A stretch of 39,117 nt of DNA, from contig JAJZMD010000202.1 of the NCBI GenBank assembly GCA_021803085.1, positions 1-39,117 on the forward strand, given 5' to 3'. Positions 9,906 to 38,690 of this stretch are shown here, one piece after another (position 1 is the stretch's first letter; each line of letters begins with the position of its first letter). The DNA comes from Actinomycetes bacterium. Its GTDB lineage: Bacteria; Actinomycetota; Acidimicrobiia; Acidimicrobiales; RAAP-2. A model generated the notes under the pieces. The model did not search any database, had not been told where the DNA came from, and worked only from the letters and a program-made list of their open reading frames with translations. A program made the translations under genes and the position numbers.

Positions 9906-10244
9906 CCCCGAAGCCACGGCGGCGAGGCTGCCTCCCACAGCGGTCGGGGAGAAGCACTGCTCCCTGTTTGCGCGACGCCGGTCGCCGGGGTAGAAAGGAC
10001 GCGGGGAAAGCGGTCGCTCGGCGGCCGACGGGAACACAGGGGAGATGAGAGTGGCGCGCGCTAGGGATGGGACCGCGCATGCCAGGGGTCCGCGCGGCTC
10101 TGCGTTGTTACGTCAGGACCCCGGCGAGGCGCGCAGCGGACACGCGCACGCTGCACCGGCCAGGAGGTCGGGTTCGTGCAGAGGGGGCTCGGAGACCCTC
10201 GGGGACGATCCGAGAGGCGGACCGATGAGGGCTCGGAGCGACCG
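9906..10244 (+). other. Intergenic region with a possible coupled small ORF
   Basis: About 340 bp between the SIMPL gene and the large regulator. A frame from GTG 10051 to TGA 10248 (65 codons) has AGGGGAG 6 bases upstream of the GTG, and its stop overlaps the regulator's ATG as ATGA. The predicted peptide is Arg/Gly/Ala-rich and unlike any family I know. It may be a real coupled leader ORF or only the upstream region of the regulator. TAGAAA near 9992 is a weak -10 candidate. Confidence 0.35.
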
Positions 10245-13715: not shown

Positions 13716-13880
13716 TTCGTGAGACACGTCGCTGGCACGTCCCTCGCTTGCCGGGGACGAAGGAAGGTCGTGCCGCCCGCCAGACCGCGGGACCACCACG
13801 TGTCGTCCCAGAGACTCGATGGACGCTCGGGAGACGGCGCACGGCACGGGACGTCGTCGCCGGACGGCCGAGGGACGCTG

Positions 13881-15695
13881 GTGGGACTGGGGCGCCGTAG
13901 GTTCCCGATCGTGGCGACCGGCACGCCTGTCGACGAAAGCCTGCGACTCGCACGCGATCTGTGTCTCGGGGTCGGGGCGTTCTACGTGACGGAGGCGGGC
14001 TCGGTGTTCGCGAGCATGTCCGACGTGATGCGGCCCGACGACGCCGACGAGCGGGTGGCGGCGCTCGCGCGGAGCTGTCTGGTGCACCCGTCCGCCCGTG
14101 GTGCCGGCCTCTTCTGGAGCGCCGAGCCGACGGACGAGGGCAGCGCGCTGCAGCCGGAGTGGTCACTTGCGTGCGTGGTGGCACCGGTTTGGGAGGCCGA
14201 CCGGTGGCTCGGGCTGCTGGGTGTCGTCGACGTCTGGCTGCCGGAGCTCGACGACGAGCAGGAGGCCGGTCTGCTGGCACTCGCCGGGGAGATCGCGCGG
14301 GCAGAGCACGAGGCCGCCTCGGCGGCGCCGGGACGCCGGGACGTTCCCGGCGAGTGGTGGGCGGCAGGCACGCTCGCCGAGCGCCACCCTCCCGGCACGT
14401 CGACCGAGCCGTTCCTCGGGGAGATCCTGGACCATCTGCCCGACGGGCTGCTGGTGGCTCGGAGCGACGGAACGATCGTGCTCGTGAACCAGACGTTCTC
14501 GCAGATGACCGGCCTGGCGCTCGACACCGTGCTGGGCGAGGACGTGACCCACGTCCTCGCGGCACCGGGGGAGCTCGGCGACGGCGCCGCAGGGAGCTGG
14601 TCCGAAGGCACCCGCGAGGCGTTCCTCCAGAGCATCCTCGGCGAGCCCGAGCCCGGCAGGACGGTGCTCGTCGGCCGGGAAGGTGAGGCCGGCGGCCTCC
14701 TGCTCGACGCCGCCGGGCGGCGGATCGAGAGCAGGTTCGCGGGGGACTGCTTCGTCACCCTGCTGCGGGCGCGGGGCGCCGCAGGCGCCGGACCGGAGGA
14801 GCGCCGCATCGAGCAGTCCGGGATCCAGGCTTTGCTCGACCACATCGAGGACGGCATCGTCTGCTGCGACTCCCAGGGGGTCGTCGTCATCGCCAACCGC
14901 GCTGCCCGCCGCCTCCAGGGGCTGTCGGAAGAGGAGCTGCAGGTGGGCGCGTCCGTGCCCTCGGTCGTGCGGCTGAAGACGCTCGAGGGCCATCAGCTCA
15001 GCGTGGACGAGCACCCGCTCGTGCGGTCCATGCTGGACGACCTCCCCGTGGCCGAGGAGCTCCTGCTTCGAGCCGATGATGTGGACCGGTACGTCTCGGT
15101 CTCCTCTCAGCCCCTGCGCGTCGATGGGGGCGACGGCGCGATCGCGGTCCTTCGCGACGTGACCAGGGAGCGGGAGCGCCAGGCGCACCTGACCCGCTAC
15201 GCGCTGTACGACCCGCTCACCGGTGTGGCGAACCGGTACCTCCTGAACGACGCGTTGGGCCGGATGCTGGAGGGTCTCCACCGGAAGGGCGGATCCGTCT
15301 CCCTCATCTACCTCGACCTCGACCGGTTCAAGGAGATCAACGACGAGCACGGTCACGACATCGGCGACGAGCTGCTCCGAGCCGTCGCCCTGCGACTCGG
15401 ACGGGCGGTCCGCGGCGAGGACATCGTCGCTCGCCTCGGCGGGGACGAATTCGTGGTCGCGCACGTGACGGCGGAGCGCCTGTCGGACGGAGACTCGGTG
15501 GTCGCCAGGGTGCGCAAGGTCCTCACCGCCCCCTACCGCTTCGGCGAACTCGTGCTCGACGTCGGTGCGTCGATCGGCTGGGTGAGCACCTCTTCGGGCG
15601 ACGACTCGCCCGAGTCGCTCATCGCCCGAGCCGACCGGGCGATGTACGAGCAGAAGCACGAGCGCCGGGCCTCCATGCAAGGAGCGTCGGGGTGA
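13881..15695 (+). CDS. Diguanylate cyclase with GAF-like and PAS domains
   Basis: A 604-residue cytoplasmic signalling protein. A GAF-like region occupies about 10-145. It is followed by two PAS domains ('LDHLPDGLLVARSDGTIVLV' and 'LDHIEDGIVCCDSQGVVVI') and a full GGDEF domain. The catalytic motif 'RLGGDEF' is at about residues 518-524, with the metal-binding 'IYLDLDRFKEIND' before it. The feedback inhibitory site RxxD is present as RGED at about 511-514, exactly five residues before GGDEF. It should make c-di-GMP from two GTP. The start GTG 13881 has GAGGGA 5 bases upstream. A second candidate, GTG 13911, lies 7 bp after TAGGTT and could be leaderless. No membrane segments are seen, so the signal is probably intracellular. 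Confidence 0.88.
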   Translation: MGLGRRRFPIVATGTPVDESLRLARDLCLGVGAFYVTEAGSVFASMSDVMRPDDADERVAALARSCLVHPSARGAGLFWSAEPTDEGSALQPEWSLACVVAPVWEADRWLGLLGVVDVWLPELDDEQEAGLLALAGEIARAEHEAASAAPGRRDVPGEWWAAGTLAERHPPGTSTEPFLGEILDHLPDGLLVARSDGTIVLVNQTFSQMTGLALDTVLGEDVTHVLAAPGELGDGAAGSWSEGTREAFLQSILGEPEPGRTVLVGREGEAGGLLLDAAGRRIESRFAGDCFVTLLRARGAAGAGPEERRIEQSGIQALLDHIEDGIVCCDSQGVVVIANRAARRLQGLSEEELQVGASVPSVVRLKTLEGHQLSVDEHPLVRSMLDDLPVAEELLLRADDVDRYVSVSSQPLRVDGGDGAIAVLRDVTRERERQAHLTRYALYDPLTGVANRYLLNDALGRMLEGLHRKGGSVSLIYLDLDRFKEINDEHGHDIGDELLRAVALRLGRAVRGEDIVARLGGDEFVVAHVTAERLSDGDSVVARVRKVLTAPYRFGELVLDVGASIGWVSTSSGDDSPESLIARADRAMYEQKHERRASMQGASG

Positions 15696-16033
15696 CGCCT
15701 CCCACCGCTTCCCTCAGCCATCCCGACGGCGTTCTCCCCGCCGACGGCGTTCTCCCCGCCGACGGCGTTCTCCCCCGGCACGGGGCCTCCCTCGGAGCAG
15801 GCCCCCGACCGGCTGCGGGATCGCCGGCTGTGGGACCCGATCTGCCGGAGCCATTGCCGGATGCCGCGTCTCCCCATCCCATCCCTGCGGTGTCCGGCTT
15901 GGCTCCGGCAGCACTTCTCTCGCTGCCCTTTGCATCGCTCGGGGTTCGACGCGGGGCCGACGGCAGCGGGACGGGCTCGCCGCACGGGCGCCGTGGATAG
16001 ATGGGCGGCGTGGGAACGGGGAGCGGCCCGAGG
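15696..16033. repeat. Intergenic stretch with an 18-bp tandem repeat (three copies)
   Basis: Three head-to-tail copies of an 18-bp unit (CGACGGCGTTCTCCCCGC) occupy 15724-15777; the third differs only at its end. The rest of the 338 bp shows no convincing gene. One frame starting at GTG 15692, overlapping the cyclase stop, is open to 16000 but gives a low-complexity Pro/Ala peptide with no family. The repeat length is divisible by three, so it would keep that frame. Role unknown. Confidence 0.7.
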
Positions 16034-17053
16034 ATGGTGGACAACCTGAGCGGAGGAACGACCAACCTCCTTCGGATGGCGAGGAGCGGCTGCCAGAGCG
16101 CCGTCGCGTTCGTCGCCCTAGCCTCCGGCGACCACGTCGCCACCGCCAGCTATCCGGCCGAGCTCGGCGACGGCCCACCATCGGCCGAGCAGCTGGAGAG
16201 CCTGGCCCGCCAGCTCTGGCTGGAGCCGGGAATCGCCCAGGGCAAGGCTCTGGTGCGCACGGTGCAGCTGGGCGGACACCAGCAGGGACGACCGCCGGCC
16301 CGGCTCGCCGTGGCCGTCGTGCCCCTTGGCGCCGGCAGCGGGGGCCGTCCCTCGGGCATCCTCGGCGTCGCGGACCCAGAGGTGAAGTCCTTCGGCGTGC
16401 CCGAGCTCGAGCTGCTCTCGCGCATCGCCCAGCGCCTGAGCTCGTACGTGAAGGCCCGCCAAGCCGTCCGGACGCAGCTCGCCGCGAGCGCGACGACGCG
16501 TGCTGAGCCTTCCCCGCCGACCCCGTGGACGGCGTCGGCCGTGCCAGGCCCTGGCGCCGGCGCCCACCGCGCCCCGGAGCCACCCCTCGACGTGCCGACC
16601 GGGGCGGTCGACCCCCTCGGCGCCGTGCTCGGCGAGGGAGCGGTGCAGGGCCTCGTCCCTCTGGGCGCGCTGCTCGGGCGCGCCGGGAGGCTCATCGGGG
16701 CCGGGTGCAGCGCGCTCGGCTCCCTGGCGGTGATCGTGGTGACGGTCGACGGCGTGACGCAGCAGGCCCCCGGGGTGCTGGCAGACCTGGTTCGCTCGCT
16801 CCGCACCGACCTCCGCTTCGACGACCCCGTGGCCTCCATCGGCGGGCTCTCCCTCGTCGCCGTCGTCCCGTGCGCCCCTGGTGCCGCGAGCCCGGACCAG
16901 GTCGAGGCACGCCTCGTGGACCGGGCCAGAGAGGCGGTGGCCCCCTTCCCGGGCGCGGCGGTTCGCGCCGCCCACGTCGTGGCGCCGCTCAGGGCCGAGT
17001 GCGACGCGGACGAGCTTCTCCGGGCCGCGGTCCTGAAGCTCCGTGCGGGGTGA
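16034..17053 (+). CDS. GAF protein with a degenerate GGDEF-like domain
   Basis: A 339-residue cytoplasmic protein. The N-terminal 150 residues look like a GAF domain ('AVAFVALASGDHVATASYP', 'GILGVADPEVKSFGVPELEL'). A Pro/Ala-rich linker follows. From about 200 on there is a GGDEF-like fold: 'LAVIVVTVDGV' replaces the usual LLLLDLDGF, and 'LRTDLRFDDPVASIGGLSL' matches the region around the active site. The catalytic motif is GGLSL (about 270-274), so cyclase activity is not expected. RFDD (261-264) keeps an RxxD exactly five residues upstream, the c-di-GMP inhibitory-site spacing. It may therefore act as a c-di-GMP receptor. The start ATG 16034 is preferred over 16001 because purine-rich GGGGAG and GAGG lie just upstream. 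Confidence 0.7.
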   Translation: MVDNLSGGTTNLLRMARSGCQSAVAFVALASGDHVATASYPAELGDGPPSAEQLESLARQLWLEPGIAQGKALVRTVQLGGHQQGRPPARLAVAVVPLGAGSGGRPSGILGVADPEVKSFGVPELELLSRIAQRLSSYVKARQAVRTQLAASATTRAEPSPPTPWTASAVPGPGAGAHRAPEPPLDVPTGAVDPLGAVLGEGAVQGLVPLGALLGRAGRLIGAGCSALGSLAVIVVTVDGVTQQAPGVLADLVRSLRTDLRFDDPVASIGGLSLVAVVPCAPGAASPDQVEARLVDRAREAVAPFPGAAVRAAHVVAPLRAECDADELLRAAVLKLRAG

Positions 17054-17208
17054 GGGCGCGCGACGCGCTGCGAGCGCCGACGCGGGCTTCGCCGGAGCTC
17101 CGCGCCGCCGTTGTTGAGCAAACGTTGACGCCCCATAGCGGCCCGTGTGGCAACGCCGTCCGACACTTGCGGTGGAACGATGGTTGGGCCATCACGGTGG
17201 AGGTGGTG

Positions 17209-17301
17209 ATGTGCGATCCGGCAGGGGAGCATCCCGATCTGGTCGCAAGGTGGGCGGGAACGACGTGGCAGATCCCGAGGAAGGGGCGGTCGCGTGAGTG
17301 A
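17209..17301 (+). CDS. Possible 30-residue ORF overlapping the next gene (uncertain)
   Basis: ATG 17209 has a strong GGAGG (17199-17203) at 5-base spacing. The 30-codon frame ends at TGA 17299-17301, 8 bp inside the next gene. The peptide has protein-like composition ('MCDPAGEHPDLVARWAG', 'WQIP'). The frame is also open upstream with a similar look ('WNDGWAITVEVV'), so a longer version from a TTG start near 17125 or 17167 is possible. No family recognised. Confidence 0.4.
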   Translation: MCDPAGEHPDLVARWAGTTWQIPRKGRSRE

Positions 17302-17644
17302 CGACCTCGCCGACTACCTCGATTCGATCGACGCCCACCTCGTGGGCTACCTGGACGAAGACCGGAACATCTCGGTGGGAGCGGTCCGCCATGTCCAGTG
17401 CTACGTGGTGGTGCTCCTCCAGGGCCTGCTCGTGCCCGAGCACGTGCACGAGGACTGGCCGGACTTCTTCCCGCTCGTGACCGCCTTCGTGCTCGCGTAC
17501 GGCTCGCCTCGTCTGGGCCATCTCGCCAGGAGGGCGGCGATCTTCGAGGGCGACGGGGACGAGCCGCTGACCGACTACGACCGCGTGTTCCTCGCCAGGC
17601 TGCTGGCGGAGCTCCAGGGCCTGCTCTCGAGAAGAGAGCGATAG
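17294..17644 (+). CDS. Small helical protein of unknown function
   Basis: A 116-residue acidic, probably all-helical protein ('MSDDLADYLDSIDAHLVGYL' ... 'FLARLLAELQGLLSRRE'). The GTG start at 17294 is preceded by AGGAAGG at suitable spacing and overlaps the end of the possible small ORF. Hydrophobic stretches such as 'VQCYVVVLLQGLLVP' look like core helices rather than membrane segments. I do not recognise the family. It sits between the degenerate GGDEF gene and the hybrid kinase, so a part in that signalling neighbourhood is possible but unproven. Confidence 0.75.
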   Translation: MSDDLADYLDSIDAHLVGYLDEDRNISVGAVRHVQCYVVVLLQGLLVPEHVHEDWPDFFPLVTAFVLAYGSPRLGHLARRAAIFEGDGDEPLTDYDRVFLARLLAELQGLLSRRER

Positions 17645-17685
17645 AGAGCGATAGGAAGAGCCGAAGAGGGGCAGGAGCGCTGCGG

Positions 17686-17700
17686 TAGCCTTGTCCCCTT
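17686..17700 (+). promoter_or_regulatory. Predicted -10 for a leaderless hybrid-kinase transcript
   Basis: TAGCCT (17686-17691) lies 9 bp before the GTG at 17701, and no Shine-Dalgarno sequence is present between them. This is the pattern of leaderless actinobacterial transcripts. A -35 box is not evident. Confidence 0.5.
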
Positions 17701-20700
17701 GTGAGCGCCCGGAGGGTGCGGAACGAGGCCGAGGTGGTCGACCCCTTCGCGGCGACCGGGTCGACCGCCGGCACACGGCGCGGGCGGCTGTGGACGGCCG
17801 GGCTCCTCGGCGCCTGGGCGCTCCTCACCGCCGGTCTGTGCGATCTCATCGCGGTGCAGCTCCCCGACAAGCCCCTCCCCGTCGCCGCCGGGGCCGTCGT
17901 CCTCGCCGGGCTCGGCGCACTCCTCGGCCTGGCGGTGAACACGGAGCGTCGGGCAGCCGACCGGCGGCTCCGCTCCGAGCTCGGCAGGGCGTCGAAGATG
18001 CTCCGATCGGTCGAGGCGATCACCGACCCTGGGCTTGCGTTCCTGGGCATCGACGAGCTTCTCGGGGCGATGCTCGAGCGCACCAAGGAAGCGATCGGGG
18101 GCGACGTCGTCTCGGTGTTCCTGGCCGACGCGAACGGCACTCGGCTGCACGTGCGGGCATCGGCCGGCGTGACGGCGTTGTCCCCTGTCGGCAGCGAGGT
18201 GCTCGCCGGCGACGGGGTGCTCGGGACGACGGCGCAGGGGGCGCGTCCGGCCGTGGTCCCCGACGTCCGACGAAGCGACGTGGGCCGCCTGCCTGAGTGC
18301 CAGAGCTCGATCGCGTCGCTCATGGTGGTCCCGCTCATCGTCCAGGGCACCACGCTCGGGATCGTGGAGGTCGCGTCCGTCTCGCGACGGACATTCGGCG
18401 TCGCCGACCTCCGGCTCCTGCAGGTCGCCTCGGACCGACTGGCCGCGGCCTTCGAACGGGCCCGCCTGGACGACCTCGCCATGCGCGGCCGGTACGGCGT
18501 CGAGCACGCGAGCATGCACCTGCGGGTGCTCGCCCGCGGCGGCACCGTGCTCGGAAAGGCGCTCGAGAGCTACGACACCGCGCTCGACGAGCTCGCCGAG
18601 GTGGTCGTCCCGGAGCTCGCCGACTGGTTCGGCGTCCACGTCCTCCAAGACTCCGGGGAGCTGCGCTGCGTCGCCTCCCGAACGTGCGGCGAGGCCTTCG
18701 CCTCCCCCGCGCTCACGGCGGGGCGTCCGAGCCCGTGGATGGAGGAGGTCGTCCGCGAAGCCGTGGACGACCGTCGCCCTCAGTTCGCGATCCCGACGTC
18801 GCGGCTCGGCGCCTCGGACCTGGGCGCTGCGGTCCACGTGCTCGAGACCCTGCCGGAGCGGTCGGGCGTGAGCTCGATGCTCGTCGTGCCGGTCCACGTT
18901 CGCGGCAGCGTCGTGGCGGCCCTCTCGTTCGCCACGGGGCCGAAGAGCCGCGGCTTCCGGCCGTCGGACCTCGAGACCGCAAGGGAGCTCGCCGAGCGAG
19001 TCGGGGTCACGATCGACCGGGTGCGCTCGTGGTGGGAGAGCCAGCGGGCGGGGGAGACGGCGTCCCAGTACGCCGAGCGGCTCCGCCGGCTCATGGACGC
19101 GTCCCTGGTCGTGAACGCGCAGTTCAGCGAGGAGGAGGTGATCCAGCTCCTCGTCGAGCACACGCATCGTGTGCTCGAGGCTGACGTCGTGGTCGTGAGC
19201 GCGCAACCGAGCGGCGGCCCGCTCGCAGAGCGGGTGTGGCCACCCGACCGGGCCTTCGACCGGCCACCCGACCGGGCCGTCGACCGGGCTCCCGACCCGG
19301 ACGGCGCCGGCACCGGCGAGGACCTGCGCCGCGTGGTGCTCGCCGCCGTGACCGCCGTTGCGGCCTCAGGGGAGGTCGTCCGGAGTCCCGAGGGCGGGCG
19401 CGGGGCGACAGCTCCGGCGGCAGCCAGGGGATGGGTCGCGGCCCCGATCACCGACGCGGGTGGTGAGGTCCGCCGCGTCGTCGTGGCCGTAAGGGAGCCC
19501 GGCACCTGGTTCAGCATCGAAGACGAGTCGGTGGTGACCCTCCTGGCACAGATGACCTCCGTGGCGCTGCGGAACGCGCGCCTGTACGCCGAGGTCCTCG
19601 GCAACGAGCAGCGCCTCCAGACCCTCGTCGACTCGTCCCCGCTCGCCATCGCCGAGCTGCAGTCCACCGGCGAGGCAGCGTGGTGGAACCGGGCTGCAGC
19701 CGATCTCTTCGGTTGGCCCGACCGCTCGGGACCTCGGAGGATGCCGGTGCGTGAGGGGTCCGAGCTCGTGCTGGCCGGCCTGCTCGACTCCGCCTTCGGG
19801 GGGAAGCCGATCATCGGCGTCGCCGTGCCAGTCACCGGAGCCGGCGGGGAGCTCCGGGAGCTGTCGGTCTCCGCATCGCCGCTCGGTGCGCTCGGCACGG
19901 TCAGCGGCGTCCTCGTCGTCGCAGAGGACGTGACCGAGCGCCAGCGGATGCTCGAGCAGTTCCACCAGGCCGAACGGTTGAACGCGATGTCCCGGATGGC
20001 AGGAGCGGTCGCGCACGACTTCAACAACCTGCTCACGGTGATCCTCGGTTGCAGCGACGTGCTGCTGCGGCGGCTGGGCGAGGACCAGGAACTTGCTCCC
20101 GACGTCGCGGCGATCCATCGAGCCGGGACGCGGGCGGCCGCTCTCACCAACCAGCTCGTGCGGATCGGGGGCAACCAGCAGCCCGTCCAGCCCGAGCTGG
20201 TGGTGGTCGACGAGGTCGTCGTCTCGATGCAGCCGATGCTGTCGAGCGCGCTCGGGTCCGGCGTGCGGCTCGAGATCGTGCCCGGGGCCGGCGCCACGGC
20301 AGTGCTCGTCGATCGGAGCGAGCTCGAGCGCTCCGTCCTCAACCTGGCCATCAACGCACGGGACGCGATGCCGGCCGGTGGCACCTTCACCATCGAGTCC
20401 GCATGCGCGGAGGACCCCTCCGACGGAGAGGAGCTTCTCGAGCTCTCGTTCACCGACACGGGCATCGGCATGGACGAAGAGACGCTCGCTCACTGCTTCG
20501 AGCCGTTCTTCACGAGGAAGGGGCGGGCCCGCGGGACGGGTCTCGGGCTCGCGGTGGTGCATGCGACGGTCTCCGAGGCGGGTGGCGAGGTGCGGGTGGA
20601 GAGCTCGCCTGGCATGGGGGCCCGTTTCACGTTGGTCTTCCCCGTCGGAACCGCCCGTACCGGGTCGGTTCCTCGTGACGAGACGTGCGAGGCCGCGCCG

Positions 20701-21174
20701 TTCTCAGAGCTGGAGAGCGGCGGGGAGACGGTGCTCGTCGTCGACGACGAGCTCGAGGTGCTCCGCCTGGAGGTACGGGAGCTGAAGGCCGCCGGCTACC
20801 AGGTGCTCGACGCGACCAACGCCAGTGAGGCGCTGCACCTGGTCGACGCGCGCGGCGGCCCTGTCCATCTCCTCGTCACCGACGTGGTGATGCCGGGCAT
20901 GAACGGCATCGAGCTGGCCACGGCTGTCCGGTGGCGCTACCCCGAGGCGGGCGTGCTCTTCGTCTCCGGCCACCTCGACGACGCTGCAGCGACGAGCCCG
21001 CTCGGCGAGCGGGGCTCGTTGCTCACGAAGCCCTTCGGTCCCGACGAGCTCACCCGCCGGGTGCGCGACGAGCTGCGTCGGGCCCGCGCGTCGGGGCGGG
21101 AGCGCGGCGTTGCGAGAGACGTCCAGTCGGGCGCTGTCGCCCCCGCGACGGCCCTTCAGGGCTCGAAGCGGTAG
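17701..21174 (+). CDS. Hybrid sensor histidine kinase with three GAF domains, PAS and receiver
   Basis: A 1157-residue protein. Two transmembrane helices near the N-terminus ('LLGAWALLTAGLCDLIAV' and 'AAGAVVLAGLGALLGLAV') have only a few residues between them. Three GAF domains follow at about 105-265, 285-450 and 455-640, the third interrupted by an Asp/Arg/Pro repeat ('DRAFDRPPDRAVDRAPD'). Then comes a PAS domain (about 650-760). The kinase core has the phospho-acceptor in 'VAHDFNNLLT' (H772) and HATPase motifs 'NLAINARDAMPAGG', 'DTGIGMDEETL' and 'GTGLGLAVVH'. The C-terminal receiver carries D1061 in 'VTDVVMPGMNG' and the lysine of 'LTKPFG'. The AHDFNN motif is typical of hybrid kinases that pass phosphate through an internal receiver. 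Its 3' end overlaps the convergent response regulator by 19 bp. Confidence 0.92.
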   Translation: MSARRVRNEAEVVDPFAATGSTAGTRRGRLWTAGLLGAWALLTAGLCDLIAVQLPDKPLPVAAGAVVLAGLGALLGLAVNTERRAADRRLRSELGRASKMLRSVEAITDPGLAFLGIDELLGAMLERTKEAIGGDVVSVFLADANGTRLHVRASAGVTALSPVGSEVLAGDGVLGTTAQGARPAVVPDVRRSDVGRLPECQSSIASLMVVPLIVQGTTLGIVEVASVSRRTFGVADLRLLQVASDRLAAAFERARLDDLAMRGRYGVEHASMHLRVLARGGTVLGKALESYDTALDELAEVVVPELADWFGVHVLQDSGELRCVASRTCGEAFASPALTAGRPSPWMEEVVREAVDDRRPQFAIPTSRLGASDLGAAVHVLETLPERSGVSSMLVVPVHVRGSVVAALSFATGPKSRGFRPSDLETARELAERVGVTIDRVRSWWESQRAGETASQYAERLRRLMDASLVVNAQFSEEEVIQLLVEHTHRVLEADVVVVSAQPSGGPLAERVWPPDRAFDRPPDRAVDRAPDPDGAGTGEDLRRVVLAAVTAVAASGEVVRSPEGGRGATAPAAARGWVAAPITDAGGEVRRVVVAVREPGTWFSIEDESVVTLLAQMTSVALRNARLYAEVLGNEQRLQTLVDSSPLAIAELQSTGEAAWWNRAAADLFGWPDRSGPRRMPVREGSELVLAGLLDSAFGGKPIIGVAVPVTGAGGELRELSVSASPLGALGTVSGVLVVAEDVTERQRMLEQFHQAERLNAMSRMAGAVAHDFNNLLTVILGCSDVLLRRLGEDQELAPDVAAIHRAGTRAAALTNQLVRIGGNQQPVQPELVVVDEVVVSMQPMLSSALGSGVRLEIVPGAGATAVLVDRSELERSVLNLAINARDAMPAGGTFTIESACAEDPSDGEELLELSFTDTGIGMDEETLAHCFEPFFTRKGRARGTGLGLAVVHATVSEAGGEVRVESSPGMGARFTLVFPVGTARTGSVPRDETCEAAPFSELESGGETVLVVDDELEVLRLEVRELKAAGYQVLDATNASEALHLVDARGGPVHLLVTDVVMPGMNGIELATAVRWRYPEAGVLFVSGHLDDAAATSPLGERGSLLTKPFGPDELTRRVRDELRRARASGRERGVARDVQSGAVAPATALQGSKR

Positions 21175-29099: not shown

Positions 29100-32000
29100 C
29101 TAGCCGGGGTCGGGGGGGCTGGACGGCGGTTGCCCGGCCTGCTCGAGGCGCATACGCCTGCGGCGGAGCTCGACCGCGAAGAACGCCGCGCCAGCGAGGA
29201 CGACGACGCCACCCGCGGATGCCAGGGCGATGGGCAGCGCGGCCGAAGAGGCGGCCGCGGCCACGACGGGGGGCGGCGATCCATGCGGCGGGGACACGGG
29301 CACTGTGCTGTGCGGGGAGCCGGCGGGCCGTGTGCTGTGGGGGGAGCCGGGCGGCGGTGAGCCGACCGGCGGTGTGCTGTGCGGTGAGCCGACCGGCGGT
29401 GTGCTGTGCGGTGAGCCGACCGGAGGTGTGCCCGAGACGGCGGACGTCACTGCGGCTCTCGGGGTGTACAGCTCTGCACCGGGATCGAGGCTCACCGTCG
29501 GGTGCCCACCGCCCTGTGTGGCCGCCACGTCGCCACCGCCGGCCACCAGCACCTGGCCGTTCGAGAGCCCGGCGATCGCCGCGCCGCTCACGGCTGTCCG
29601 CATCGACCCGGCGGAGCGCCACGAGCCGGCGTCCGGCTCGTACAGCACCGCCGTGCGCGTCGAGCTTCCGTCGCTCTCGCCGCCGGTCACCAGCACCTGG
29701 CCGTCCGGGAGCGTCGAGATCATCGGCATGGTCACCGCTGCCGGCATGCCCGCCGTCGAGCTCCAGATCCCCGTGCTCGGGTTGTAGACGTCGCCGTCGG
29801 CCGCTCCCCCCACCACGAGCACGTCTCCGTTTTGGAGCGCCGTCCCTGCGGCCATCGCCCGCGGCTGGGTCATGAGGCCGGCAGGCGACCAGGTCCCCGA
29901 CGATGGGTCGTAGCGCTCGGCTGTGGCAAGCGGTCCTGTGGCGTCCTCGCCGCCTGCCACGAGAACCTGCCCATTTGGCAGCGAAGCCGCGGCGCCGAAG
30001 GCGTGCGGGGTGGTCATCGAGCCGGTCGTGGTGAACCTCCCAGTGGCGGAGTGGTACACCTCTGCCGTCCGCAGCGGCGAATGGGCCGCACCCACGCCAC
30101 CCCCCACGAGCACGTCTCCGCCTGGGAGCGGCACTGCGAACGCGAACGTCCGCGCTTCGTGCAAGGAGCCGGTCCGGGAGAACGTCCCCGTCTTCGGGTG
30201 GTAGATCTCGGCGGTGCGCAGCGGTCTCCGTGTGGAGCCGTAGCCGCCGACGACCAGCACGTCACCGTTGGCGAGCACGGTCGCAGAGGCGCCGGCCCTG
30301 GCCGTCGAGAGCGACCCCACGGACGACCACCTGCCGTCGGCCGGGTCGTAGACCTCGGCCGAGGAGAGGACCCGCATCCCCGTACCCACCCCGCCGGCCA
30401 CCAGGATGTCACCGTTGTCGAGGGTTGCGGACGCCGGGAACGAGCGCGCGCGCGCCATCGACGCCGTTGCCTTCCAGCTGCCGAGAGGTGGGCCGACCGT
30501 CGGCGCCGCCGCCACTGGCGTCACCGACGTGCCGCCGTTGGCTCCGGACGGGTTCGCGGCTGTCGTCGACGCCGAGGGTGGTTTCGAGGTCGTGGGCGGC
30601 TGGGAGGCTGCTGGCTGGGTCGGGACGAGGACCGCCTTGCCGATGTTCTGGCGAGGCCCGGAGGGTGGCGGCACGGGCGCTGTCGCGGGGGGCAGCGGCT
30701 TGACGAACGCTGCGAGCGTCGCCAGGGTCGGCGAAGGCTGCGCGTGTCCGGTCCCATGACCGCCGGCGCCCTGGCTGCGGTGGCGTACGAGGCTCGCGAG
30801 GCTGGCTGAGACGTGGCCGTTGTAGTCGAAGGTCACCGAGTAGCCGTCGGCCTCGAGCGTCACGCCGCTGCTTGTGATGGAGAACCCGGTCTTGCCGAGG
30901 GTCGCGGAGAACCCGACGGTCCTCCACGCGTAGTTGCACGGGTACGGGAACACTGTGTCCGTGTAGCAGGTCTGCGTGGCGACCCACGCGGAGATTGTGA
31001 GGGAAAGCGAGCCGGAGATGAACGCGCTGAGCTTCGAGGTGGACAGATCGATCTGCACTGTCGCGCTGAGCTCGCCGCCGATCTTCAGTGTCGGCCCGAT
31101 GTTGACCGATCCTGGCCCGAGCTGGGCGCTCCCTGTGAACTGGAACTCGAAGGTGGTCGGCGACGCCTTCAGCACGACCTTGATGGGCCCGATCGAGAGG
31201 CCGTGCAGTGTGATCTTCGAGATTGTGGCTGTGAATGTGATGCTCGGCGGAGAGAGCCCGACTGAGGCGAGGATCGACGTCTTGACGCCGAACAGTGTCG
31301 CTTGGAACCCGATGCTGAGTCCTGCGGGGTAGGTTGTCGGTCCGATCGTCGCGCCCGTCGGGGAGATGTAGAGCGAGGCGTAGTACACCTTGATGAGTGT
31401 CTTCTGGCCGAAGTACTCCAACGGCTCCAGAGCGGGCGTTGTCGAGCCCTTGGTCCCGATGCTGAGCTTCAACAGGAACGGGTCGAGATTGAACGCGAAG
31501 CTGATGGGCGCGCCTTCCTGGTAGCCGGTCGCGTTGGCGACCGACGACGGAAGCGAGGTGATCGTGCCCGAGAGCCCGACGTTCACGAAGGGGAACTCGT
31601 AGGTGATGCCGCCCGCCAGCGACGCGCACTGGACCGTGAGGCCCGAGGCGCCGAAGGCTGTGATCCAGGCTGTTGTTGTGCTGCCGCAGTGTCCCAGCGA
31701 CAGCGACACGCTGATCCCGGTGTCGGAGATCGACAGCTCTCCGGTGAGCGCGACATGGGACGTGCCGCCGACCGCTCCGGGTGAAGGCAGGTCCAGGGTG
31801 GCGGTCAGTCCCAGGCCGAACGTGAAGCTCGTCGGGCTGAGCGTCAGCTGGAGGAACCCTGTGTCGAGGATGAGCTTCGCGCCGTTCGATGTGAAGAGCT
31901 GCGCCCCGCTCCCGAGGTTCACCGAGATTGTCAGCTTGTAGGTGTCGCTCGAGAATGTGGCGGTGCCCGTCGCCTTCAGGGTGGAGCCGGCGGGAATTGT

Positions 32001-35000
32001 GATGCCGATCTTGGCCAGCCCCTTCGCAACTGTCGCCGGGACGGTGACGGCGAGCGCGAAGGTGAGCCCCTGCGCGAGGTCGATCTTCTGGAGCGTCGGG
32101 TCCCCGGTTGTGAACCCCGTCACCTTCTTCGACGCGTAGTACAGGTACGCGAAGCTGCCGTCGCTCCCGAGCCACTTGGAGAGGTTCGCCTCGGCTCCGA
32201 TGATGAACGTCCCGCCGGACTCGAACGCGAGGGTGGCCCGGACCACCAGGCTCCCGCCCGTCGGCATCGTGACCGTGAGTGTCGCTGTCGCCTGCACGTC
32301 GAAGGCGCCCGAAGCCCAGCTGAGCGTCACCGTGGGCGCACCGAGGACGACGTGACCTGTGAGGGCGCTGAAAGAGAGGGCGGCCAGCGTGGCCTTGATC
32401 GAGAAGGTCTTCGCCGTGAGGTCGAAGCAGCCTGTGGCTGTGACGGACTTGGTGTCTGTGCCGAGCGTCATCGCCAGCGAGCCACTCACCGCCAGCCAGA
32501 GGTCGCCGGTCTTCGAGACGCTGCACCCTGCCGGCGGAGCGGCGTTGCCGAGGCCCACCGAGTTGACGGCCAACGTCACCGGTCCTGGTGAGAGCGTGAG
32601 GAGCGGCGACCCGTTCGCACCAGAGGCGGCGAGCGAGAAGGTCACCGAACCGGCGGCGTCGGTGACCGTCCCCGAGAACGACGGCGAGAGGGTCACCCCC
32701 GGGAACGGCGTCCACGCCTTGGTCGCCGCGGCTTTCACCGTGAGCGACCATGTCTTGATCTTCTGGAGCGAACCTGTGACCGAGAGGGACCCGAGTGTGT
32801 CGAGGGACATCGTGGCGGCGACGGAGATGCCCTTGGTGCCGAGGGAGAATGTCACGTTCGACAGCGTGAAAGGCACGCCCGGGAAGGGGGTGATGGGCCC
32901 GGGCACCGAGCCCTTCACTGTGGCGGTGATCGCGCCTGTCGCGGCTCTGACGATCGAGCCGCTCAGTGTGACCACCTGACCGAAGATGGTGAGCTTGCTG
33001 ACCGTCGCCTTTCCTGTGAAGGTCCCGGCTTTGCTCCCGGTGCCGATCGTGAGTGTGAGGGTCACCGGCGCGGGCTGGGCGCCGGGGTCCGGGATGGATC
33101 CCTTGACCGCCAGTCTGAGGGCTGTTGTGCCGTAGGACAGGACGATCGATGTCAGCTTGCCTGTGTCCGGCAGGGACAGGAAGGGGAACCCTGTGCCGCC
33201 GGAAAGGGTGAGGGAGAAGGTGGGCTTCGACCCGGGCGCCCAGTTGGCCTGGAAGTAGATGGCTGCGCCCGAGCCCAGGCTCGAGTCCACCTCGTGGAGG
33301 ATCGCGGCCACCGCCCCTGTCGGGTGGTACACGGCGAACGCGTTGAATCCCTTCGCAAGCGTGACCCTTCCGCCCGAACCCACTGTCGGTGTGCCGGTTG
33401 CGAAGTTCGTGACCGCCCCGGTCGCGTAGGCGAACACTCCCGACAGCGGCACCCCGAGGCCCTTGAATGTCACCTTGCCCGCCACTGCGAGGACGCCTGT
33501 CTCGTCCTGGAAGGTGACCCCGACGGTGGTGCCGATGGCCGAGATCGTGGCGGTGGCGCTTCCCAAGACGCTCAGGCCCGACGCGTTGCCCGTGATCGAA
33601 AGCGAGTTCAGGGTGAGGGTGAGGCCGGTCACCGGGGAGGCCGAGAGCGGTCCGGCTGTGGCGTCGTAGGAGAAGTCGATCCCCCCCGTCCTCAGATCGA
33701 TGGCACCCTTGAACCCTGCGGTGATCCCCGATCCTGTCGCTGCGCTCCCGAAGGCGACCGAGCCTTGTGCGAACAGGGTCGGATCCGTCGGAGACTTCGA
33801 TGTCGAGCCACCCTCACAGGTGGGAACTTCCCCGAAGGCGAGCGCCACGCAGGAGATCTGGAGGACGACCCCGCCGCCCGGGCTCCACGACACGAGGCTC
33901 GTGCCCGCGGTGTGCCCGGTCGGGGGCTTGCCCGCCTGGATGTCGTAGGTGACGACCGCCGAGGAACCGGCGGTTGTGATGGTCACTGTCCCGGTCAATG
34001 TCAGGTTGAACTTCAGCCCTGTGATCGGGCTCCATGTCTTGACCGAGCCGGCTGTCACCTTGAGCGTCCACTTGCCGCGGTTGTAGTTGCCTGTGAGCGT
34101 GAGTGTGAACTGCTTCGTGCCGGCGCCGAGCACGGCCTTGCCCTTGATCGTGAGGCCCGTTGTCGTCGAGAGTGTCAAGGAGATGCCGCTCAGGGCGAGC
34201 CCTGGAACGGGCGAGTAGGAAGCGGTCGCCGGCAGCACTGTCAGCTTGACCGAGCCCTTGATCTTTCCTGTCGTCCCGGTGCCGACTTGGAAGGTGCCGT
34301 GGAGCGCCGACCCGAGGAACGGAAGGTTGAGCAGTGTCAGGGATCCGCTCGCTGTGAACGTTGTGCCGGTCTTCGTGACCGACACGGTGAGTGTGACGTA
34401 GGGGGACGCGGCAGGCGGAGTAGCCGGACCGAGGTGGACCGAGATCGTGGGCGGAGAAGCCGCGAAGCTGACGGTGAGCTGGTAGGTGGCTGAGGTCGCG
34501 ACCGCCGCGTACGGGATGGTCGACGCGGCCACCGTGATGCTCCCGCTCGGGGGTCCGAGTGTGCCGGTCACGGTCGTACCGCTCGCTGTGATCGTGGTCA
34601 GGGCGAAGCAGAGCTTCTCGGTGCTGGAGAGCCCGAGCGAACCCATCGACCAACCCGACGGCAGCGCGAGGGTGCCGCCCGTCAGGCAGACCTGCGGCTT
34701 CCCGGTGCCGCCTTCGGAACCCACGACGTACCCACTCATCGAGGTGCTCGCGAGAGTCTTCCCGAAGAGGTCGAGCGACGCGCCGCTGAACGAGACGGTC
34801 CCTGTGGTCGCGCATGTGCCGCTCACCGAGTCGAGCTTCAAGCTCACCGAGCCGTAGTGCCCTGCGCCGTCGACGGAGAGCGAGAGTGTCTTCTCGGACT
34901 TGGCCGCAGTCCACACGGCTGTGAAGGTCGGTGTCGAGGTGCACGCCGCTCCCGGGGTGAACGTCAACGTCGCTGGTGCAGCGAGCTTCTGGAAGTCGGC

Positions 35001-38000
35001 GCTCGACGGGGAGTATGTGGCGCTGAAGGTGACGGGTGTCTTCGGCCGCGGCAGCGAGCACGTCGCAACCGCGGAAGGCCCTGACGACGGCGAGAGGGTT
35101 CCTGTGCAGGTGTGCGACCCTTCGGTCACCGTCACGGTCCCCGTCGGAGCGACGGTCGCGCCGGTTGCGGTGTTCGTCACGGTCACGGTGACGAGGTCTG
35201 CTGTGGCGCTTGTCGGGCCGATCGAGATCGAGGCGGAGGTCGGCGCCGCGGTCACCTTGAGTGTGGCGCTGCCCGAGCTCTTGGCATATGTGCCTCCCGC
35301 GTACGCGTAGTCCGCGGTGATCGTGACCGGAGCTGTGCCGGCTGGGAGCACGGAGGGAGAGATCGTGCACGCGGCCTTTCCTGTCGCGTTGACAGGCTGC
35401 GCGCTGCAGGAGGGCACGGGCGTCCCGCCGGCGAGGAAGGCCACGGTCCCCACGGGGACCGTGGCGCCTGTGGCGGTCACGGTGACCGCCGCGGTGGCGG
35501 GCGTCGGGACGCCGTACACCGCCGAGCTGGCGAGCAGCACGGCGGTGGACGTCCCCTTCCCGCTCACCTTCACGTACCACGGAGCAGAGGTCGACGCCGC
35601 GGTCAGGGTCCCGGCCGCGGGGGAGTAGGACGCGACCACTGTGTCCTCGTTGTTCGGGATCGGGACGAACGTGCACGTGGCCTTGCCTGTGGAGCCGACC
35701 GCCTTGCCGCCGCTGCCTCCGCATGTGCCGATCGCCTGCCCGTTCTCCTTGAAGGTGACCGTGCCTGTGACCGGCTCGTGGCCGGCGGTCGTGGAGACGG
35801 CTGCGGAGATCGTGACCGGCACGCCGCCGGCCACTGTGTACGGGTTCGTCTGGGTCGCTGTCGGGCTGAGCGTGACGGACGTCGGGTCCGGTCCGGTCTT
35901 CGCGGTGACCGAGTTGGATGTGCTCGGGCTCCAATCGGCGCAGTCGCCGGTGCTGCCAGCCGGGCAGTAGGTGGCCGAGAAGCTGAGCGTCACTGTGCTC
36001 GTCGCCGGCATGGTCACCGAGCACTTCGCGACTCCTCCTGCGACCTTCACCGCCGTGCATCCGCTCACCCCTGTGCCCGCGAAGGCCACGGTGCCGTCGA
36101 CAGGGGTGCCCGGGTATGAGTTCCCGTCCGTCACCGCCGCCTCGAGTGTCACCTTCGCCCCTACGGGGATGGTGCCCGCCGACGTCGGTGTCACCGTGAG
36201 GGTCGTCGTCGCTGTCGCCTTCGCGACCGTGATGGTCAGTGTGGAGCTGACGGCGTTGGTCTGAGTATCGCCAGGGTATGTGGCCACCACCGTCTCGGAC
36301 TGGAGTGTTCCTGTGCGTCCCGGGACGAAGGTGCATGCGCCGCCGCTCGCGCTGAGCGGGTTGGTCTGTGTCTTCCCGATGCAGTCGATGGCCGTGCCTG
36401 TCGCTTTGAGCGTGACGCCTGGGGGGCTCGTGTCGCTGGCGGGGATTGTCTTCACGGTCACGTCCACCGTGATCGATTGCCCGAAGACGGGAGTCTGTGT
36501 CGAGCCCGGGGACAGTGAGACGCTCACCGTCGGCGTCACCTTGCGCAGTGTGTAGGACACCGGCGTGGAGGGCCCTGCAGGGGTGTTCTCGCCGGCACCG
36601 GCGTACTTGGCGGTGAAGGAGTACTTCTTGCCTGGGACCGCTCTTGTGAACCTGCAGGTCGCGGGGGCAGCACCCCCGGCAGCGGCCTTTGTCGAGATCT
36701 CGACCGGTGTCGGGTTGCAGGTGAGCAACGTCGCTGCTCCACCTGTGGCGTAGAACGTCACCTTCCCTGTGCCTGTGCTCCGGGTGCCGAGCGACGTCGT
36801 GGCGTAGCCGGGCGTTGCGCTCGTCCGTGTGTACCCGGCCGGGTAGACGGTCACGCTCAGTGTCAGGGAGGGCGGGAACTTGCTGGCTGTCACCGAGACT
36901 GTGCCGATGGTCGTCGTGTCCTTCGCCACGCTGGCGGTCGCCGGCCCCGTGCTCGCCGCGTAGGTGTTGTTGGCGACGAACTCTGCGGAGAAGCTGGGCT
37001 TGGACACTGTCCCCAGCCGGTACGAGCACGACGCGGTGCTCTGTCCCTGCGTCGTGCTGTGCACGAGGGCGGTTGTGGCTGTGCAACCCGTCGCCTGGAT
37101 GTGCGTGCCTGTGGCGTAGAACTGGACGACGCCTGTCGGGTCGGTCGTCCCTGTGGCAGTCACCGTGGCGTTCAAGGTGACCGTCTCGCCGAACTGGGGC
37201 GGTGTCGTCGGGGCCGTCACCGAGAGGGAGGTCGTCGTCGAGACGAGTGTCCATTCGAGCTCGACATACGCGTACCCCCCGCTGTTTGTCGCGCCGCTCC
37301 CTGTTGTGGTCACGGTGTTGCAGCTCGTGGTCCGGCTTGTGCACATGTAGCGCACTCTCGACACCCAGCCTGTGCCGTGGACGCCGCTCGAACCGCCGCC
37401 GCCGCCGCCGCCGCTGCCGTTGTCGCCACCGCCACCGCCACCGCCACCGCCGTACCAGCCCGCGCCTCCGCCGCCGCCCGCGCCGGCGCCGGTCCCGCCA
37501 GACGGATCGCCCCCGCCGAAGCCGCCGCCGCCGCCGCCGTGGCCCGACCCTCCGCTGCCGGCTCCGCCGGCTGTGCACTTCCCCGCGGCGCCGCCGCCGC
37601 CTGCGCCGCTCTGCGTGGCACCTCCCCCTCCGCCGCCGCCTGCGCAGATCGTCGAGTCCAGGACCGTCCCGGACGCGCCGCCGCTCCCCGTCTTGCCGGC
37701 GCTCCCGCCGTTGGACGGTGTCTGCGTGGCGCCCCACGAGCCCGCGCCCCCGCCGCCGCCGGCCATCGCCAGGGTTGCGCCTGTGGAGGTCGAGATCCCC
37801 GTCCAGCCACCGCCGCCGCCGCTACCCGCTCCGTCGTTGCCGTTGGCTCCCGAGCCGCCTCCGGGCGAGCCGCCGCTGCCCCCTGTCTTGCCGCTCGGCG
37901 TCGACCCGTTCGCGCCGCCGGTGATGTCCAGGGTCCGACTCGGCAATGTCGCCATGACGAGTGTCCCGGTGACCATCGCGCCGGCGCCGCCGGGCGCGCC

Positions 38001-38381
38001 GCCGACGTGGCCGCCGATCGCCCCGTTCAGCTGGAAGTGGACGGTCGGGATTCCTGCAGGGATCGTGACGGATCCCGTCTTTGTCTTGGTCGTGTCCGCT
38101 GCCGTTGTCCACTGGCACGTGACATGGACACCTGCCGCCGTGCATGCAGTTGGCAGCGGGGTCGACGTCGCGGTGGTCGAAGACTGAGTCTGGACGAGCG
38201 GCGACAGCATGGCGGCGCTGGCCGGCGGGGGAGCCTGGGTGTCGAGCCGGGCGGCCTGGCGCTCCGTCAGCACCGCGGGCACGACGAGCGCGCCGACCAC
38301 GGCTGCGCACATGCCAGTGACCCCCACTCCGGGCATCGCGCGCAAGAACCGACGTGCTGCCCGCCAACACCACGTCGCCAC
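29100..38381 (-). CDS. Giant membrane-tethered surface protein (Gly-rich, Ig-like, beta-rich, kelch)
   Basis: A 3093-residue protein in one uninterrupted frame. The signal sequence is about 15-45 ('GMCAAVVGALVVPAVL'). A Gly-rich domain spans about 105-335, resembling actinobacterial Gly-rich surface domains ('VHFQLNGAIGGHVGG'). About seven bacterial Ig-like domains of some 100-110 residues occupy about 382-1140, several with a cysteine pair. About 1145-2530 is a Ser/Thr/Gly-rich beta region with many alternating strands that I cannot assign. After a Pro/Thr linker come seven kelch repeats (about 2639-2975; 'NGDVLVVGG', 'TAEVYxPxTGxW'), enough for one propeller. A 'TPPVGSPHS' stalk, a membrane helix ('ALPIALASAGGVVVLAGAAF') and the tail 'ELRRRRMR' end it. 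The start GTG 38381 has GGAG 6 bases upstream. Probably a cell-surface adhesin or scaffold. Confidence 0.85.
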   Translation of the reverse strand: MATWCWRAARRFLRAMPGVGVTGMCAAVVGALVVPAVLTERQAARLDTQAPPPASAAMLSPLVQTQSSTTATSTPLPTACTAAGVHVTCQWTTAADTTKTKTGSVTIPAGIPTVHFQLNGAIGGHVGGAPGGAGAMVTGTLVMATLPSRTLDITGGANGSTPSGKTGGSGGSPGGGSGANGNDGAGSGGGGGWTGISTSTGATLAMAGGGGGAGSWGATQTPSNGGSAGKTGSGGASGTVLDSTICAGGGGGGGATQSGAGGGGAAGKCTAGGAGSGGSGHGGGGGGFGGGDPSGGTGAGAGGGGGAGWYGGGGGGGGGDNGSGGGGGGGSSGVHGTGWVSRVRYMCTSRTTSCNTVTTTGSGATNSGGYAYVELEWTLVSTTTSLSVTAPTTPPQFGETVTLNATVTATGTTDPTGVVQFYATGTHIQATGCTATTALVHSTTQGQSTASCSYRLGTVSKPSFSAEFVANNTYAASTGPATASVAKDTTTIGTVSVTASKFPPSLTLSVTVYPAGYTRTSATPGYATTSLGTRSTGTGKVTFYATGGAATLLTCNPTPVEISTKAAAGGAAPATCRFTRAVPGKKYSFTAKYAGAGENTPAGPSTPVSYTLRKVTPTVSVSLSPGSTQTPVFGQSITVDVTVKTIPASDTSPPGVTLKATGTAIDCIGKTQTNPLSASGGACTFVPGRTGTLQSETVVATYPGDTQTNAVSSTLTITVAKATATTTLTVTPTSAGTIPVGAKVTLEAAVTDGNSYPGTPVDGTVAFAGTGVSGCTAVKVAGGVAKCSVTMPATSTVTLSFSATYCPAGSTGDCADWSPSTSNSVTAKTGPDPTSVTLSPTATQTNPYTVAGGVPVTISAAVSTTAGHEPVTGTVTFKENGQAIGTCGGSGGKAVGSTGKATCTFVPIPNNEDTVVASYSPAAGTLTAASTSAPWYVKVSGKGTSTAVLLASSAVYGVPTPATAAVTVTATGATVPVGTVAFLAGGTPVPSCSAQPVNATGKAACTISPSVLPAGTAPVTITADYAYAGGTYAKSSGSATLKVTAAPTSASISIGPTSATADLVTVTVTNTATGATVAPTGTVTVTEGSHTCTGTLSPSSGPSAVATCSLPRPKTPVTFSATYSPSSADFQKLAAPATLTFTPGAACTSTPTFTAVWTAAKSEKTLSLSVDGAGHYGSVSLKLDSVSGTCATTGTVSFSGASLDLFGKTLASTSMSGYVVGSEGGTGKPQVCLTGGTLALPSGWSMGSLGLSSTEKLCFALTTITASGTTVTGTLGPPSGSITVAASTIPYAAVATSATYQLTVSFAASPPTISVHLGPATPPAASPYVTLTVSVTKTGTTFTASGSLTLLNLPFLGSALHGTFQVGTGTTGKIKGSVKLTVLPATASYSPVPGLALSGISLTLSTTTGLTIKGKAVLGAGTKQFTLTLTGNYNRGKWTLKVTAGSVKTWSPITGLKFNLTLTGTVTITTAGSSAVVTYDIQAGKPPTGHTAGTSLVSWSPGGGVVLQISCVALAFGEVPTCEGGSTSKSPTDPTLFAQGSVAFGSAATGSGITAGFKGAIDLRTGGIDFSYDATAGPLSASPVTGLTLTLNSLSITGNASGLSVLGSATATISAIGTTVGVTFQDETGVLAVAGKVTFKGLGVPLSGVFAYATGAVTNFATGTPTVGSGGRVTLAKGFNAFAVYHPTGAVAAILHEVDSSLGSGAAIYFQANWAPGSKPTFSLTLSGGTGFPFLSLPDTGKLTSIVLSYGTTALRLAVKGSIPDPGAQPAPVTLTLTIGTGSKAGTFTGKATVSKLTIFGQVVTLSGSIVRAATGAITATVKGSVPGPITPFPGVPFTLSNVTFSLGTKGISVAATMSLDTLGSLSVTGSLQKIKTWSLTVKAAATKAWTPFPGVTLSPSFSGTVTDAAGSVTFSLAASGANGSPLLTLSPGPVTLAVNSVGLGNAAPPAGCSVSKTGDLWLAVSGSLAMTLGTDTKSVTATGCFDLTAKTFSIKATLAALSFSALTGHVVLGAPTVTLSWASGAFDVQATATLTVTMPTGGSLVVRATLAFESGGTFIIGAEANLSKWLGSDGSFAYLYYASKKVTGFTTGDPTLQKIDLAQGLTFALAVTVPATVAKGLAKIGITIPAGSTLKATGTATFSSDTYKLTISVNLGSGAQLFTSNGAKLILDTGFLQLTLSPTSFTFGLGLTATLDLPSPGAVGGTSHVALTGELSISDTGISVSLSLGHCGSTTTAWITAFGASGLTVQCASLAGGITYEFPFVNVGLSGTITSLPSSVANATGYQEGAPISFAFNLDPFLLKLSIGTKGSTTPALEPLEYFGQKTLIKVYYASLYISPTGATIGPTTYPAGLSIGFQATLFGVKTSILASVGLSPPSITFTATISKITLHGLSIGPIKVVLKASPTTFEFQFTGSAQLGPGSVNIGPTLKIGGELSATVQIDLSTSKLSAFISGSLSLTISAWVATQTCYTDTVFPYPCNYAWRTVGFSATLGKTGFSITSSGVTLEADGYSVTFDYNGHVSASLASLVRHRSQGAGGHGTGHAQPSPTLATLAAFVKPLPPATAPVPPPSGPRQNIGKAVLVPTQPAASQPPTTSKPPSASTTAANPSGANGGTSVTPVAAAPTVGPPLGSWKATASMARARSFPASATLDNGDILVAGGVGTGMRVLSSAEVYDPADGRWSSVGSLSTARAGASATVLANGDVLVVGGYGSTRRPLRTAEIYHPKTGTFSRTGSLHEARTFAFAVPLPGGDVLVGGGVGAAHSPLRTAEVYHSATGRFTTTGSMTTPHAFGAAASLPNGQVLVAGGEDATGPLATAERYDPSSGTWSPAGLMTQPRAMAAGTALQNGDVLVVGGAADGDVYNPSTGIWSSTAGMPAAVTMPMISTLPDGQVLVTGGESDGSSTRTAVLYEPDAGSWRSAGSMRTAVSGAAIAGLSNGQVLVAGGGDVAATQGGGHPTVSLDPGAELYTPRAAVTSAVSGTPPVGSPHSTPPVGSPHSTPPVGSPPPGSPHSTRPAGSPHSTVPVSPPHGSPPPVVAAAASSAALPIALASAGGVVVLAGAAFFAVELRRRRMRLEQAGQPPSSPPDPG
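29356..29430 (-). repeat. 27-bp tandem repeat coding for the TPPVGSPHS stalk
   Basis: Two exact copies (29356-29382 and 29383-29409) plus a partial third encode nine-residue Pro/Ser/His units. Degenerate copies continue towards 29310. It lies between the kelch propeller and the membrane helix, so copy number would set the stalk length. Confidence 0.85.
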
Positions 38382-38690
38382 CGCTTGCTCCGTTCTGTCC
38401 CGTGGCCCGTCCTGCTCGGCGGCGGCTGTTCACCGCCACCCGCAGGCGGCCATCGCCCGCACCGTCCGCCTCCGCAATTTCCCGGAAGTGGTTGGCGGAC
38501 GGTACACGGCCGTAGCGGGTCGGTCAAGGACCTCGCGCGCTCATGGCACGCATGCACCGGGTGCACGTCCGCCCTCGCCCGTCCCGGCGCCACGCGGCCT
38601 CGCGCGCCTCGACGAGTCTCGAGGCCAACGTGACGTCGAGGTTCGAAGGACGCGCCGTCACCCCGGCGGCGAACGCCAGAATGGCAGTCC
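38382..38690. promoter_or_regulatory. Divergent intergenic region with a 13-bp palindrome
   Basis: 309 bp between the giant gene and the DHA2 transporter. TGCACCGGGTGCA (38553-38565) is a perfect palindrome around a central G, the size of a dimeric repressor site. TACCGT on the minus strand near 38502-38507 is a weak -10 candidate for the giant gene. No gene is evident here. Confidence 0.4.
38677..38690 (+). promoter_or_regulatory. Predicted -10 for a leaderless transporter transcript
   Basis: CAGAAT (38677-38682) is followed by 8 bp and then GTG 38691, without a ribosome site. Same arrangement as before the DUF512 and hybrid kinase genes. Confidence 0.4.

Follow-up and report, generated by a model that had tools for sequence, protein, structure and literature searches.

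The window analysed here, a stretch of 39,117 nucleotides from an Actinomycetes bacterium, carries on its minus strand (38381..29100) a single open reading frame of 3,093 codons, which runs without an internal stop from a GTG at 38381 to a TAG at 29100. On the same strand, 6 nt upstream of the GTG, lies a GGAG (38388..38391) that resembles a ribosome-binding site by its sequence pattern. The GC contents at the first, second and third codon positions are 0.57, 0.64 and 0.86, which is the pattern of a coding frame. All features of this gene are given below in window coordinates and are located on the minus strand. The host genome (4.25 Mb) is distributed over 296 contigs, with the giant gene on contig C70. 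Elsewhere, the window contains a tandem 312-bp repeat (22-762; 2.4 copies, 86% matches) within a frame that is open at the window start, and a run of regulatory genes (10176-21174) encoding an AAA/BTAD regulator, a PAS-GGDEF diguanylate cyclase, a GAF-like protein and a GAF/PAS hybrid histidine kinase.

Genome searches were made with pieces of the 3,093-residue protein and yielded 19 named loci. When residues 1190-2530 served as the query against 100 related genomes, orthologues with identities of 91, 77, 53, 52 and 50% came up, in open frames about 3,000 residues long. The eleven orthologues (L019-L029) come from independently assembled metagenome-assembled genomes (MAGs), and in nine of them, including L019, which starts only within the head, at the edge of its contig, the head, Ig-like modules, beta region, kelch domain, stalk and helix follow one another in the same order; L024 and L027 are truncated by contig ends. 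The contigs are labelled as Actinomycetes MAGs, with two exceptions: L028 is labelled only "bacterium", and L027, on a 3,075-base contig labelled Dormiibacterota, is the sole orthologue labelled outside the actinobacteria and is likely mis-binned. In comparison with the two closest orthologues, dN/dS is below 1 in every segment (0.14-0.62), lowest in the two beta copies and the beta core (0.14-0.33) and highest in the linker and the stalk (0.53-0.62). The outer parts diverge faster, with dN values of 0.11-0.13 for the head and the Ig-like modules versus 0.03-0.05 for the beta copies and the core.

The high GC content of the window opens numerous long frames that are spurious, which speaks for the alternative that the 3,093-codon frame is a chance opening in GC-rich DNA or an assembly artefact. 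The dN/dS values, the Pfam domain matches inside the frame and the identical domain order in independently assembled genomes leave that possibility a negligible probability. With dN/dS below 1 and the same order in orthologues, the gene is therefore real, conserved and under selection, and misassembly is excluded because orthologues from other assemblies show the same arrangement. Homologues of known function with the same architecture, which would have refuted a new domain combination, were sought, and all eleven homologues found are uncharacterised MAG genes. The genes next to it in the window (an MFS transporter, a GerM-domain protein and others) were not found beside the orthologues; those flanking genes that were tested vary between the loci, with no conserved neighbour, and the candidate of an operon or of partner genes was rejected for this lack of synteny.

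The protein begins with a putative signal region (38262..38381), in which a basic n-region, common to the window protein and the orthologue L020, precedes a hydrophobic stretch at residues 19-37 (Kyte-Doolittle hydropathy 2.17 over 19 residues) that is also present in orthologues. At the other end, a predicted transmembrane helix (29169..29243; residues about 3047-3071, hydropathy 2.15 over 19 residues) occupies the same position in 11 proteins and is followed by a basic tail, predicted to be cytoplasmic (29103..29168), which starts at about RRRRMR; helix and Arg-rich tail are found in all C-terminally complete homologues. The N-terminal signal together with a C-terminal stop-transfer helix and an Arg-rich tail points to an N-out, C-in topology, which would place the propeller near the membrane and the head outermost. 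Sortase anchoring was rejected: the window protein has no LPXTG-like motif before the C-terminal helix, and isolated LGATG and LPVSG sequences in two orthologues only do not amount to a consistent motif.

The head (37227..38129; residues 85-385) is glycine-rich. Its AlphaFold2 model has an overall pLDDT of 58.6 and a pTM of 0.61, with pLDDT values of 65-89 over most of the first 80 residues, which form beta strands, and mostly below 50 in the glycine loops, so that it is confident only in the beta sandwich. The top structural matches in the VIA search were twelve entries of ALK/LTK ectodomains (Z 10.3-11.0; rmsd 3.2-4.0 A over 158-187 aligned residues), followed by the fibre of phage Pam3 and the tail tip of Bxb1 (Z 8.7-9.0) and then, after a gap, by unrelated entries with Z scores of 3.2 and below; Foldseek agreed on these matches. 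With a profile restricted to the N-terminal half of this domain, the first PDB sequence matched was C. elegans ALK (7lir, E 0.0011), and sequences of glycine linkers appeared only at E values of 0.09 and above; the similarity to ALK outside the glycine runs is thus weak, yet specific. No Pfam match was obtained for ten heads, and ALK_LTK_GRD (PF12810) did not exceed its cut-off in the protein, in the heads or in the host's own genome. From the model and the profile match together we conclude that the head has the TNF-like plus glycine-rich (TG) fold.

The resemblance of the Pam3 tip to C. elegans ALK has already been published, and the TG domain of Pam3 is described there as recognising the host receptor, its variable loop ends being carried on a conserved glycine stem (PMC9608196). 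With the TG domain of ALK/LTK (PF12810; PDB 7lir, 7mzy, 7nx1) the giant protein would share the fold of the head and a single-pass type-I topology, but it has neither an EGF-like nor a kinase domain, its remainder is unrelated, and its head falls below detection by the Pfam model. In cyanophage Pam3 gp24 and mycobacteriophage Bxb1 the fold is likewise found at the distal end; however, in the phages it belongs to short subunits of the fibre or the tail tip (a trimer in the case of Pam3 gp24), whereas here the TG domain would cap a single membrane-anchored chain of 3,093 residues. We infer from these relatives that the head may bind a ligand. TG heads are also commonly joined to other bodies in relatives: 34 of the 100 related genomes gave matches, many of them to proteins 240-500 residues long. 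The host itself encodes a second TG-head protein (L080:3134-6280, contig C2; 1,049 residues) with FN3-like domains and a CWB2-like C-terminus, and two further examples are a 375-residue protein in which a signal and a TG head precede a C-terminus of pentapeptide repeats (L075, genome G087, contig C60) and a protein combining a TG head with an Ig-like body (L076); the bodies of all three were read by eye.

The head is followed by exactly seven Ig-like modules (34950..37238; residues 382-1144). A profile derived from the seven segments themselves scored them at E values of 1e-24 to 2e-33; among the orthologues it detected 6-7 modules in those that are more complete, and reversed sequences gave no hit. 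Pfam Big_3_5 (PF16640) reached 51.1 bits against a cut-off of 35.5.

Residues 1145-2525 have no match to a Pfam or NCBIfam family, and the profiles of this beta region matched no PDB sequence. An N-terminal segment (34365..34949; residues 1145-1339), conserved in orthologues and likewise without a family match, precedes two copies of a repeat, copy 1 (33051..34364; residues about 1340-1777) and copy 2 (31740..33032; residues about 1784-2214). The first sign of the duplication was an offset that stayed at about 450, and in a profile-profile comparison the copies matched each other with a probability of 99.35 and an E value of 6e-21 over 408 columns at 27% identity; repeats within each half of the unit were not significant by the same method. 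Judged from these profiles, the beta region contains a tandem duplication of a unit of about 440 residues, followed by a conserved terminal core (30807..31739; residues about 2215-2525). No other segment of the protein is conserved as well as residues 2301-2525, which retain 54-62% identity in distant orthologues, versus 37-54% for the kelch domain and 17-47% for the Ig-like modules. The signature of the core is YAsL.iaP.GaTIG..tYPaG.

Copy 2 and the core recur, at 37-40% identity, in a second family (L031-L037), whose complete members have Ig-like domains, including Big_3_5, and pentapeptide domains in the order Ig, beta core, Ig/MBG and pentapeptide repeats. These proteins differ from the giant protein in that they have no TG head, kelch domain or C-terminal transmembrane helix and terminate in the pentapeptide repeats. 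More faintly, copies of the core are also seen in further families, both of the class and of the phylum, within proteins that are 1,400-4,350 residues long. One weak match with a poor alignment (L018, FN3-like plus beta) was excluded from the models. Two related giants of 4,153 and 4,352 residues, encoded about 42 kb apart on one contig (L053, L054), contain poly-Thr linkers and the beta core, and a frame of 1,591 residues (L057:2-4774) has about a dozen tandem beta repeats of about 56 residues each, without a Pfam match, ahead of its core. The beta family, that is the duplication plus the mobile core, has no counterpart in the libraries searched and looks new.

A poorly conserved Pro/Ser-rich linker (30462..30806; residues 2526-2640), with 16-46% identity outside the closest relative, connects the core to a kelch domain of seven repeats (29502..30461; residues 2641-2960). 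Pfam Kelch_1 matches with an E value of 8.9e-33 and 111.9 bits against a cut-off of 20.1, and seven GxVLVxGG motifs start at residues 2657, 2706, 2755, 2804, 2852, 2894 and 2942. Thus, as in other kelch-repeat beta-propellers (PF01344, PF13964), seven repeats are found above the Pfam cut-offs; the difference is that this predicted propeller would be extracellular and membrane-proximal and that it has no catalytic Cys. It is followed by a Pro/His stalk (29262..29501; residues 2961-3040), which in orthologues is rich in Pro/Thr or Gly instead.

It should be noted that much of this architecture had been recognised in a sequence-only reading, which described a single chain with a Gly-rich head, about seven Ig-like domains, a very long unassigned beta region, a seven-bladed kelch propeller, a variable Pro/His stalk and a C-terminal membrane helix with a basic tail, placed the propeller near the membrane and the head far outside, and knew of no described family with this order. 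These claims have stood, the number of Ig-like modules is now exact, the Gly-rich head has been assigned to a fold, the stalk, helix and tail extend to the orthologues that reach the C-terminus, and the order of domains was found neither in the libraries searched nor in the open-access literature. Absent from that reading were the N-terminal hydrophobic signal, the known fold of the head with its ALK/LTK and phage relatives, the tandem beta duplication, the mobile core in other giant proteins and the family that combines the core with pentapeptide repeats.

Taken together, we consider it reasonably probable, from sequence, models and analogy, that the product of this gene is a giant surface adhesin, anchored in the membrane as a type-I protein, whose Ig stalk carries a receptor-binding tip. 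The chain would be exported via its N-terminal signal and halted in the cytoplasmic membrane by the C-terminal helix and the Arg-rich tail; the variable Pro/His stalk would span the cell wall, a rigid base and middle would be made up of the propeller and the large beta region, and the seven Ig-like domains would form the outer stalk, at the far tip of which the TG domain would bind its ligand, which may be a glycan, a protein, a mineral or another cell, via glycine-rich loops, like the tips of phage fibres and the ectodomain of ALK. Points in favour are the signal and the transmembrane helix with its basic tail, which recur in orthologues, the TG fold predicted for the head, the seven Ig-like modules, the faster divergence of the outer parts, and the TG heads borne by further exported proteins of this genome and of its relatives, among them one with a CWB2-like end (by eye). 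Points against are that the best-conserved part is the beta core and not the tip, that the glycine loops of the head are poorly predicted, and that operon partners and synteny with the window neighbours are lacking. Large modular surface adhesins are a known kind of protein, and phages and animals are already known to have TG tips. Bacterial giant Ig-repeat adhesins, as a class, share with the present protein the long chain, the tandem Ig-like modules, the surface anchor and a distal domain of a ligand-binding type; what sets it apart from them is its membrane-proximal kelch propeller, its duplicated undescribed beta region and its transmembrane anchor, which takes the place of LPXTG. The combination of domains, without a counterpart in the libraries searched, looks new.

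The conservation of the core raises the question whether the beta region could be the functional part. It would then be a long amphipathic belt of antiparallel beta strands at the cell surface with lipid or some other hydrophobic molecule as its ligand, in principle like ApoB, and the head, the Ig-like modules and the propeller would do no more than position it. The model of residues 1332-2530 (pLDDT 73.9, pTM 0.40) has 82 strands and is 63% strand, and the two faces of these predicted strands differ by 2.74 hydropathy units, compared with 1.47 +- 0.13 after shuffling within strands, although alternating hydrophobicity is expected in any folded beta protein. The best Foldseek match, and the sole PDB match with an E value below 0.001, was the beta belt of ApoB100 (E 5.7e-5), with LptD next; however, the pTM of the model is low, and the rmsd of 39 A and TM-scores of 0.07-0.14 reduce the ApoB match to a long meander. 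Viral structures gave no match to the beta region at E below 0.001, and the VIA list consisted of barrels. The matches thus being long meanders and barrels, mostly with very large rmsd, a fold identity was rejected, and the model shows a predicted long antiparallel meander and no more; that these lists contain no counterpart is no proof of a new fold. The recurrence of the core in giant proteins without a head or propeller fits such a belt, but Pfam reveals no sequence link to lipid-transfer families, and we regard this reading as unlikely. A wider proposal makes the beta region the founder of a new superfamily of actinobacterial surface belts or grooves, giant and amphipathic, which would bind or carry lipids or other hydrophobic molecules; here it would be tethered between an ALK-like ligand-binding tip and a propeller close to the membrane. 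This proposal appears quite unlikely to us.

Two other functions can be considered. A contact or signalling receptor like animal ALK, in which binding at the tip is passed on through the helix to a partner in the cytoplasm, would fit the combination of a TG head with a single-pass helix as in ALK/LTK; however, the tail of about 20 residues is poorly conserved and has no domain, and no conserved neighbour offers itself as a partner, so that such signalling is improbable. The kelch domain could also be a copper-radical enzyme of the galactose oxidase or glyoxal oxidase type that acts on polysaccharides at the cell surface, with the rest of the protein serving in substrate binding, and in Pfam it does show a weak match to Glyoxal_oxid_N (E 6e-5) that falls short of the cut-off. 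Copper-radical oxidases require a Cys-Tyr cofactor, and none of 10 homologues has a Cys in the propeller, which argues against a galactose-oxidase-type site; this assignment was rejected as very improbable.

For a giant adhesin, the presence of a TG domain at the tip would mean that the tip fold of an animal receptor kinase and of the host-recognition fibres of phages has been joined to a membrane-anchored surface protein of bacteria. This raises the question whether a single ligand-binding module has been exchanged or inherited among phages, bacteria and animals. That the beta region is conserved hints more strongly than any other observation at a role beyond holding a tip, and since the core is better conserved than the tip, the function of the core may be the main one. 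As no other part of these proteins is as constrained as the core, and as it occurs in giant proteins across several actinobacterial families, a structure or a binding result obtained for one core would inform all of them.
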